Below, one piece after another: positions 2,313 through 58,781 of a stretch of DNA of 64,000 bases (positions within the stretch are counted from its first letter, which is position 1; every line of letters starts with the position of its first letter). Source of the DNA: Oxalicibacterium faecigallinarum (GTDB lineage Bacteria; Pseudomonadota; Gammaproteobacteria; Burkholderiales; Burkholderiaceae_D); assembly GCF_014635705.1 (NCBI RefSeq), contig NZ_BMDI01000004.1:1-64000 (forward strand). The letters run 5' to 3'. The notes beneath the pieces are model-generated. The model did no database searches. It saw only the letters and a program-made list of their open reading frames with translations, and was not told the DNA's origin. Position numbers and translations under genes: made by a program.

Positions 2313-4190
2313 TTGTCTGCCTCTGCAAAGAAAAGCAGCACCGCCGCGCTGACGCTGGCTGCCGTCGGCATTGTTTATGGCGATATTGGAACCAGTCCGC
2401 TGTATGCCATGAAAGAAGTCTTCGCCGAAGGGCATGGGCTTGCTTTGACAGCGGAAAACATTCTTGGCGTGGTTTCCCTCATTATCTGGGGCCTGATCAT
2501 TGTCGTCTCGCTCAAATACGTCGTGCTCGTGCTGCGAGCGGATAACCGCGGCGAGGGCGGCATCATGGCGCTGCTGTCACTTGCGCTTTCGTCCGTCGGA
2601 CGCAATTCCAAGGCGTACTTCCCGTTGATGGTCATGGGCGTGTTCGGCGCAACGCTGTTCTACGGTGATAGCGTGATTACACCGGCGATCTCGGTCTTGT
2701 CTGCTGTCGAAGGTTTGAGCGTGGCGGCGCCCGGGTTCGATCCGTACATCATGCCGCTGGCGGTCGTCGTGCTCGGCATCCTGTTTGCCATGCAGAGTCG
2801 TGGCACGGGCGGTCTGGGGCGATGGTTCGGCATCATCATGGTGATCTGGTTTGCCGTACTGGCAATGATGGGATTGGTCAACATCATTGAAAACCCGGGC
2901 GTGCTGCAATCGCTGAATCCCTGGCACGCCTTGCACTTCCTCGAAGGTCATCCGCTACTGGCGTTTATTGCACTGGGCGCGATCGTGCTGGCATTTACAG
3001 GCTCGGAAGCCTTATACGCCGACATGGGCCATTTTGGTAAGCGTCCGATTCGTCTTGCGTGGTTCATGGTTGCTTTCCCGGCGCTGGGTTTGAATTACAT
3101 GGGACAAGGCGCGTTGCTGCTGGCGCGTCCGGAAGTGGTGTCGAACCCGTTTTACCAGCAGCTTGGCGAATGGAGCATCTATCCGCTGGTTGGTCTGGCA
3201 ACACTGGCGACCATTATTGCCTCGCAGGCGACGATTTCGGGCGCGTTCTCGATGACCAAGCAGGCGATTGCGCTGGGTTTCCTGCCGCGCATGAAGATCG
3301 AATACACCTCGGCCAGCGAGATGGGCCAGATCTATGTGCCCGCGGTGAACTGGTCGCTGATGATTGTCGTGATGCTGGCTGTGATCGGGTTTGGTTCATC
3401 GTCCAATCTGGCAGCGGCCTACGGCATCGCGGTGACGGCGACCATGACAGTGACGACGATTTTGACTTTCTATGTGATCCGCTTCCGCTGGAAGTACAAC
3501 CTGCTGTTGTGCATTCTGGCGACAGGGTTTTTTCTTGTGATCGACGTCAGTCTGTTGGCTGCCAACATGCTCAAGCTGCTGCATGGCGGCTGGTTCCCGC
3601 TGTTGCTGGCAGTGGTGCTGTTCGTCATGATGCTGACCTGGAAGCGCGGGCGTGAACTGGTGTTTGAGAATCTGCAGAAGCATGCAATTCCACTCGATGA
3701 TTTCCTGACCTCGCTGTTTATCGCGCCCCCGACCCGCGTGCCGGGAACGGCGATCTTCATGCGGAGCGAATCGGATGGTGTGCCGCACGCGATGCTGCAC
3801 AATCTGCTGCACAACAAAATTCTGCATGAACGCGTGGTTTTCCTTTCGGTGAACATGCTGGAAGTGCCGTATGTGCCGACCGAAGAGCAGGTACGCGTGC
3901 AGGAGCTTGGCAACGATTGTTATCAGATGACCGTGCAATACGGTTTCAAGGACACGCCGGATGTACCGATGGCGATGGAGCTTGCCGCGGAGCAGGGACT
4001 GGTATTCGACATGATGGAGACATCGTTTTTCATTGCTCGCCAGACCGTGGTGCCGAACCCGGAACGCGGCATGGCGCTGTGGCGTGAACACCTGTTTGTC
4101 ACCATGTCGCGCCATGCACGCGATGCGGCAGATTACTATCAAATCCCTTCCAACCGCGTGATCGAACTGGGAACCAAGATCGAGATTTAA
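2313..4190 (+). CDS. kup: Potassium uptake protein Kup (KUP/HAK/KT family), TTG start
   Basis: Proton-coupled K+ importer of the inner membrane, with about 12 membrane segments in the first 430 residues and a cytoplasmic C-terminal domain. The signature GDIGTSPLYA sits at residues 23-32. I place the start at TTG 2313: GGAG lies at 2303-2306 with good spacing and the protein then begins (M)SASAKKSSTAALTL, as Kup homologues do. The upstream in-frame codons from 2265 encode a sequence unlike the family. Length is 625 residues, normal for Kup. It stands alone, divergent from ettA and convergent with rarD. Confidence 0.95.
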   Translation: MSASAKKSSTAALTLAAVGIVYGDIGTSPLYAMKEVFAEGHGLALTAENILGVVSLIIWGLIIVVSLKYVVLVLRADNRGEGGIMALLSLALSSVGRNSKAYFPLMVMGVFGATLFYGDSVITPAISVLSAVEGLSVAAPGFDPYIMPLAVVVLGILFAMQSRGTGGLGRWFGIIMVIWFAVLAMMGLVNIIENPGVLQSLNPWHALHFLEGHPLLAFIALGAIVLAFTGSEALYADMGHFGKRPIRLAWFMVAFPALGLNYMGQGALLLARPEVVSNPFYQQLGEWSIYPLVGLATLATIIASQATISGAFSMTKQAIALGFLPRMKIEYTSASEMGQIYVPAVNWSLMIVVMLAVIGFGSSSNLAAAYGIAVTATMTVTTILTFYVIRFRWKYNLLLCILATGFFLVIDVSLLAANMLKLLHGGWFPLLLAVVLFVMMLTWKRGRELVFENLQKHAIPLDDFLTSLFIAPPTRVPGTAIFMRSESDGVPHAMLHNLLHNKILHERVVFLSVNMLEVPYVPTEEQVRVQELGNDCYQMTVQYGFKDTPDVPMAMELAAEQGLVFDMMETSFFIARQTVVPNPERGMALWREHLFVTMSRHARDAADYYQIPSNRVIELGTKIEI

Positions 4191-58310: not shown

Positions 58311-58341
58311 AAAACGGCAGGCACATTGCTGTGCCTGCCGT
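58311..58341 (-). terminator. Terminator of sugE
   Basis: On the minus strand CGGCAGGCACA pairs with TGTGCCTGCCG around GCAA and ends in TTTTTCG. It separates sugE from the broken monooxygenase gene. Confidence 0.8.
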
Positions 58342-58358: not shown

Positions 58359-58673
58359 TCAGGAAGACAGCTTCATCAGCACGATGCCGCAGATGATGAG
58401 TGCAGCAGCAAGTATCCGCATGAGGCTGGCACCTTCGCCCAGCACAAAGACGCCCACCGCAAAGGCGCCGACCGCGCCGATGCCGGTCCAGATCGTGTAC
58501 GCAGTACCAAGTGGCAGCGTGCGCATGGAGATCGACAGTAGCGCAAAGCTGGCAGCCATGAACACAAAGGTGATGATGGTTGGCGTGAGGCGGGTGAAGC
58601 CTTCGGACTGCTTCATGGAAAATGCCCAGACAACTTCGAGCACGCCGGCGATGACAAGATAAATCCAGGCCAT
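58359..58673 (-). CDS. sugE: Guanidinium exporter SugE/Gdx (SMR family)
   Basis: Four-helix small multidrug-resistance protein of 104 residues working as an antiparallel dimer, exchanging guanidinium for protons. The essential Glu is in GVLEVVWAFSMKQSEGFTRL; the GFTRL and LPLGTAYTIWTGIGAVGA segments distinguish the Gdx/SugE branch from EmrE. ATG 58673 has AGGAGGGCC in front. A two-hairpin guanidine-II riboswitch lies in its leader, which strongly supports the guanidinium role over general drug efflux. Confidence 0.93.
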   Translation of the reverse strand: MAWIYLVIAGVLEVVWAFSMKQSEGFTRLTPTIITFVFMAASFALLSISMRTLPLGTAYTIWTGIGAVGAFAVGVFVLGEGASLMRILAAALIICGIVLMKLSS

Positions 58674-58698
58674 AGGGCCCTCCTGTAGAAAGAAAGGT

Positions 58699-58744
58699 TG
58701 GGCCGTCCCAGACTGATTCCCAAAAGCGGGGGAGGTCGTCCTCC
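58699..58744 (-). promoter_or_regulatory. Guanidine-II (mini-ykkC) riboswitch
   Basis: On the minus strand two small hairpins appear 20 bases apart: GGAGG-ACGA-CCTCC (58744-58731) and TGGG-ACGG-CCCA (58710-58699). Both loops fit the ACGR consensus of guanidine-II. The second hairpin is about 15 bases from the ribosome-binding site, so ligand binding would release or expose translation of sugE. Confidence 0.88.
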
Positions 58745-58752
58745 TGCACAAA

Positions 58753-58781
58753 ATTATAGCTCGCAGGCAAAGTTGTGGCAG
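58753..58781 (-). promoter_or_regulatory. Promoter of sugE
   Basis: On the minus strand a perfect TATAAT (58758-58753) has CTGCCA 17 bases upstream. Transcription would begin just before the first riboswitch hairpin. Confidence 0.65.

Follow-up and report, generated by a model that had tools for sequence, protein, structure and literature searches.

Guanidine-II (mini-ykkC) riboswitches are defined by two stem-loops with ACGR loops, separated by a linker of 7–40 nt (PMC7544219). They have been described as translational switches in which guanidine is bound cooperatively and the Shine-Dalgarno (SD) sequence is exposed (PMC12186494, PMC5486947). In published models of the E. coli switch the anti-SD lies in the linker (PMC9300104, PMC9094411), and Huang et al. 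described a Gloeobacter stem that overlaps both P2 and the ribosome-binding site (PMC5486947). Gdx exporters have a known set of residues, namely E13, W16, S42, Y59, W62 and a Gly-Ile-Gly motif (PMC7695847, PMC9574504). W16 is conserved in Gdx, whereas the Qac subtype has G or A at that position (PMC7695847). Some tolerance to quaternary ammonium compounds has been reported for Gdx proteins linked to Guanidine-II (PMC12186494).

We analysed a 64,000-nucleotide stretch of DNA from Oxalicibacterium faecigallinarum (hereafter, the window), which contains a leader resembling that of E. coli gdx (sugE, b4148). Both leaders have two ACGR hairpins (ACGA, then ACGG) joined by a short linker, with the SD and the gdx start immediately 3′ of the hairpins. 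The window differs in its 20-nt linker with CCC..GGG, in its P2 stem (UGGG/CCCA, compared with GGGG/CCCC in E. coli), in its SD context (AGGAGGGCCC), and in its protein, which is only 56% identical to E. coli Gdx. The system is an ordinary and well-studied one, and the locus is a good new example of the known Guanidine-II/gdx arrangement.

Structure of the gdx locus

The features of the locus, all on the minus strand, are as follows.

58753..58781, minus strand: sigma-70-like promoter (CTGCCA 58781–58776, 17 nt, TATAAT 58758–58753)
58698..58747, minus strand: aptamer of a Guanidine-II (mini-ykkC) riboswitch, matching RF01068 over its full length
58731..58744, minus strand: P1 hairpin GGAGG-ACGA-CCTCC, read from the sequence and from compensatory changes in relatives
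58711..58730, minus strand: linker CCCGCTTTTGGGAATCAGTC, 20 nt, with no CUCC anti-SD; a small additional hairpin could form between its CCC and GGG
58699..58710, minus strand: P2 hairpin TGGG-ACGG-CCCA, read in the same way as P1
58679..58698, minus strand: segment from P2 to the SD, and the SD AGGAGG itself (58684–58679)
58359..58673 including the stop codon, minus strand: gdx (sugE), 104 aa, predicted SMR-family guanidinium exporter (NF008512, PF00893, Gdx-Clo structures, residues)
58314..58341, minus strand: intrinsic terminator 3′ of gdx, a 12-bp stem followed by TTTT

An earlier note on this DNA had described TATAAT, P1, a 20-base spacer, P2, AGGAGG and a sugE reading frame on the minus strand, and all of these pieces were present base for base. 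The promoter contains 10 of 12 consensus bases (0.5 expected in shuffles of the region), and its TATAAT ends six bases 5′ of the aptamer; the predicted transcription start, ~6–7 nt past the −10 element, would be the aptamer's first base. Sites resembling TATAAT (5 or 6 of 6 bases) at most ~20 nt 5′ of P1 were found in 17 of 71 gdx leaders, compared with 2% of control stretches. The gdx start codon ATG (58673–58671) is 25 nt from the end of the P2 stem, and the terminator stem begins 17 bases beyond the gdx stop codon. Because a promoter lies just 5′ of the aptamer and a strong terminator lies 3′ of gdx, a one-gene unit looks likely; that is, the mRNA probably starts at P1 and carries gdx alone.

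Identity of the riboswitch

The assignment of the leader to Guanidine-II in the earlier note was borne out by a covariance-model search. RF01068 matched 58747–58698 (minus strand) over model positions 1–48 with 33.7 bits, against a gathering score of 32 bits. The E value was 0.0055 when all 4227 Rfam families were searched over the 64 kb, and 6.7e-5 when the family alone was searched over the whole 3.3-Mb genome. The margin over the cut-off was only 1.7 bits, and the score was modest because P1 has 5 bp (8 in the model) and P2 has 4 bp. The loops (ACGA and ACGG) and the 20-nt linker fit the published definition, and the gene 3′ of them (gdx) is predicted to belong to the guanidine efflux and metabolism genes that Guanidine-II precedes. 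This match was the only one that the whole-genome RF01068 search gave, and a second Guanidine-II copy was therefore rejected; no Guanidine-I riboswitch was found elsewhere in the genome.

Could the leader instead consist of two chance hairpins, or of a decayed riboswitch that has stopped sensing guanidine, before a constitutive SMR gene? The score near the cut-off, a P2 of just 4 bp ending in U-A, and folding that shows no switch would each agree with this explanation. The 91-nt leader was no more stable than its shuffles (z = 0.16). In contrast, the pattern GGACGRCC-N15..40-GGACGRCC had a single occurrence in the window, and 100 dinucleotide-preserving shuffles gave none. A DNA-pattern search for CGGGACGRCCCG in 398 genomes gave no discrimination, because GC-rich genomes often contain the pattern by chance. 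When 16 related leaders were aligned, 94.4% of the P1/P2 pair cells were standard pairs, and 9 pair cells had changed on both sides compared with 2.2 in shuffles; four pairs had such two-sided changes, and the covariation score was reached by no shuffle. The window's own P2 adds one compensatory change, a closing U-A where the 15 others have C-G. Every loop position is intact, and Oxalicibacterium flavum and one further genome of the genus retain the element alongside an exporter of the same type. We rejected chance or degeneracy on the shuffle test and the compensatory changes, and consider it extremely unlikely. Wherever the anti-SD may lie, we are confident from the sequence that a Guanidine-II riboswitch very probably controls a Gdx exporter here.

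By family membership we hold firmly that the element would act as an ON switch; the binding of guanidine, the kissing loops, the ON direction and the export of one Gdm+ against two H+ are all drawn from the published family. RNA polymerase would start at or beside the first aptamer base, and guanidinium would be bound cooperatively by the ACGR loops of P1 and P2, holding a kissing complex. This complex would keep the P2 3′ arm (CCCA and the following bases) off the SD region, and the free SD would let ribosomes start on gdx, whose product may export guanidinium against protons as an SMR dimer.

Identity of the exporter

The identification of the gene as sugE in the earlier note held. The protein passed the NCBIfam SugE equivalog NF008512 (128.7 bits; cut-off 126) and matched PF00893 (SMR) with 101.5 bits, whereas it failed every Qac and EmrE cut-off; the best non-SugE drug-exporter model gave 83 bits against a cut-off of 200. 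Its best solved relatives were 8vxu (100 bits) and 6wk5 (98 bits), compared with ~51 bits for EmrE. Structure 6wk5 is Gdx-Clo, and 8vxu is a one-residue variant of it. The match to Gdx-Clo is full-length and the substrate-site residues are the same, although Gdx-Clo belongs to a different Gdx lineage. E13, W16, S42, Y59, W62 and the Gly-Ile-Gly fulcrum are all present in the window protein.

The alternative is a multidrug exporter of the Qac type, with a riboswitch that serves drug tolerance. It draws on membership of the SMR family, on a SugE score close to its cut-off, and on a clade set well apart from E. coli Gdx (support 100/99, branch 0.93). We know of no member of this clade that has been tested. 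Against these points stand W16, which is neither of the Qac residues, with the other Gdx residues, the failure of all Qac and EmrE models, and the repeated pairing of this exporter with a guanidine riboswitch. The genome also has a separate EmrE-like gene without such a riboswitch. We regard a Qac-type exporter as very unlikely. The earlier note had gone further, taking the riboswitch to indicate guanidine export rather than drug resistance. The SugE equivalog, W16 and the failed cut-offs support the first half of that statement, but its exclusion of drug tolerance is somewhat overstated, because Gdx tolerance to quaternary ammonium compounds has been reported (PMC12186494) and because the characterised Gdx clades in the tree do not include the window's.

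The genome contains four other full-length SMR genes, of which one is EmrE-like, one is Gdx-like, and two are divergent and similar to each other; no Guanidine-II was found at their loci. The second Gdx-like gene (L119:1462–1782, minus strand, contig C1) is 61% identical to E. coli Gdx and has no ACGR hairpins upstream. It lies near two matches to Betaproteobacteria toxic sRNA (RF02278).

Relatives and distribution

Guanidine-II was found in 12 of 13 genomes of the genus. Among the 80 nearest gdx loci, 23 had an Rfam-level Guanidine-II match within ~80 nt of gdx, and 37 had paired ACGR hairpins before gdx. A tree of 73 Gdx proteins placed the window's protein together with those of O. flavum and one other genome of the genus in the one separated clade; E. 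coli Gdx and the Gdx of the remaining readable members of the genus fell outside it. The clade has a scattered distribution that takes in Pseudomonas, Mesorhizobium, Massilia, Janthinobacterium, Comamonas and others. O. flavum Gdx shares 85% identity with the window's Gdx, which is 47–52% identical to the standard Gdx of its own genus. We infer that exporter and riboswitch probably moved or were exchanged together.

The O. flavum locus (L032) shares with the window a near-identical P1 and promoter, a DEAD-box helicase gene upstream, and monooxygenase-like and acetyltransferase genes downstream. It differs in its P2 (CCGGG/CCCGG), in a cupin-like gene before gdx, and in a PaiB-like gene (L032:2326–2967) between gdx and the monooxygenase-like gene. 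The PaiB-like gene is absent from the window even though the flanks are otherwise much alike. The small monooxygenase-like gene 3′ of gdx in the window (58291–57967, minus strand) has an in-frame TAA (~58110), whereas its O. flavum counterpart is intact (within the ORF at 2517–3308); the window copy is either a pseudogene or the product of a sequencing error.

Linkers of the clade often read CCCAT..GGGAA (e.g., window 58730–58718, L034, L040), which might fold into a small third hairpin lying between P1 and P2. Many leaders of this kind scored just above or below the RF01068 cut-off, and Rfam may under-call this subgroup of Guanidine-II leaders.

Location of the anti-Shine-Dalgarno

In most gdx leaders of the genus the linker reads CGCUCCA, which fits UGGAG-like SDs; the linker model thus suits these leaders, but not the window, whose linker lacks CUCC. 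Leaders of the window's clade show a match between the 3′ arm of P2 with its flank (CCCGGCUCU and variants) and the region of the SD (AGGAGAGCCG and variants). The window has a GGGCCC overlapping its SD region that is able to pair with the GGCCC of the P2 loop and 3′ arm; the pairing comprises GGCCC with GGGCC, plus CCU with AGG.

We compared cognate with swapped pairings among 30 distinct leaders. The P2 arm paired better with its cognate SD than with swapped ones (−10.48 vs. −9.43 kcal/mol, z = −3.15, p = 0.0017), a signal that dropped to z = −0.7 to −1.8 once similar leaders were removed. The same test showed no cognate signal for the linker (z = −0.13) and z = −1.07 for the P1 arm. An earlier, coarser test on mixed leaders gave weak signals only, with P1 or P2 favored by different groupings. 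These results weakly favor the P2 3′ arm with its flank as the anti-SD of the window's clade. We put forward tentatively, as a possibility well short of even, that in this distinct Gdx clade the P2 3′ arm and the bases that follow it serve as the anti-SD, such that P2 formation and SD masking would be mutually exclusive.

A genuine Guanidine-II aptamer could also be combined with an anti-SD in the linker or in the P1 3′ arm (CCUCC), as drawn for E. coli, and we consider this a serious possibility, somewhat short of even. The published models use the linker (PMC9300104, PMC9094411), most gdx leaders of the genus carry CGCUCCA there, and the P1 CCUCC can pair with GGAGG in the window (−9.3 kcal/mol). 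The window's own linker and the swap values for linker and P1 speak against it. Moreover, GGAGGACGACCTCC is aptamer sequence, and its fit to GGAGG is therefore hard to avoid.

Folding of the window leader left the SD 15% open when unconstrained and 5% open with P1 and P2 enforced. The SD was hidden in both folded states because of a CCUUUCU/AGGAGGG hairpin. Mean SD openness over 38 folded clade leaders was 0.34 both free and with P1 and P2 enforced. Thus, neither the window leader nor those of the clade gave support for a simple thermodynamic switch between two folds.

Other genes associated with Guanidine-II

Seven alphaproteobacterial loci, fetched as relatives of gdx, had Guanidine-II matches (33.2–39.2 bits, Rfam-level) upstream of a second atpB gene that itself lies directly upstream of gdx. 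The hosts are Nitratireductor, Rhizobium, Phyllobacterium, Kaistia and three Afipia, and the intervals concerned are L053:1084–1899, L043:1073–1886, L092:1082–1895, L035:1094–1906, L039:991–1908, L066:989–1906 and L074:987–1901. The product is subunit a of the F1Fo ATP synthase; four copies tested against NCBIfam gave 350–373 bits (cut-off 225). There are exactly two atpB genes in each of these genomes, and in three of the seven loci gdx has its own second pair of riboswitch hairpins. Comparison of the seven gdx-linked copies with six readable main copies showed that the conserved Asn beside the essential Arg is Val in all seven (RLFANM/RLFGNM to RLFAVM/RLFSVM), and ~20 further positions differ. 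Such a pair of genes is rare, as two strong matches to subunit a were seen in only 1 of 385 alphaproteobacterial genomes sampled. None of the papers that we consulted connects a second atpB with a guanidine riboswitch or gdx. Our guess is that the gdx-linked copy could be induced by guanidine as a substitute subunit a, one able to tolerate guanidinium close to the Arg of the proton path.

Three loci from the same class as the window (L174, L166, L181) had Guanidine-II directly upstream of fatty-acid-desaturase-like membrane proteins of 324–335 aa (PF00487 for L174), with ORFs starting ~20 nt past the riboswitch. To our knowledge, fatty-acid desaturases are not a known guanidine-linked gene type. 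In the Alphaproteobacteria, Guanidine-II was found upstream of PACE-type efflux proteins at L215, L217 and L225; this assignment was tested for L215 (Pfam BTP, chlorhexidine efflux transporter, PF05232) and made by look for L217 and L225.

Implications

The atpB arrangement is more surprising than the window's own riboswitch. The related leaders form a natural comparison set for locating the anti-SD of Guanidine-II. For O. faecigallinarum itself, an SMR gene that might have been taken for a drug-resistance pump can be named with confidence as a guanidine-induced exporter of guanidinium.
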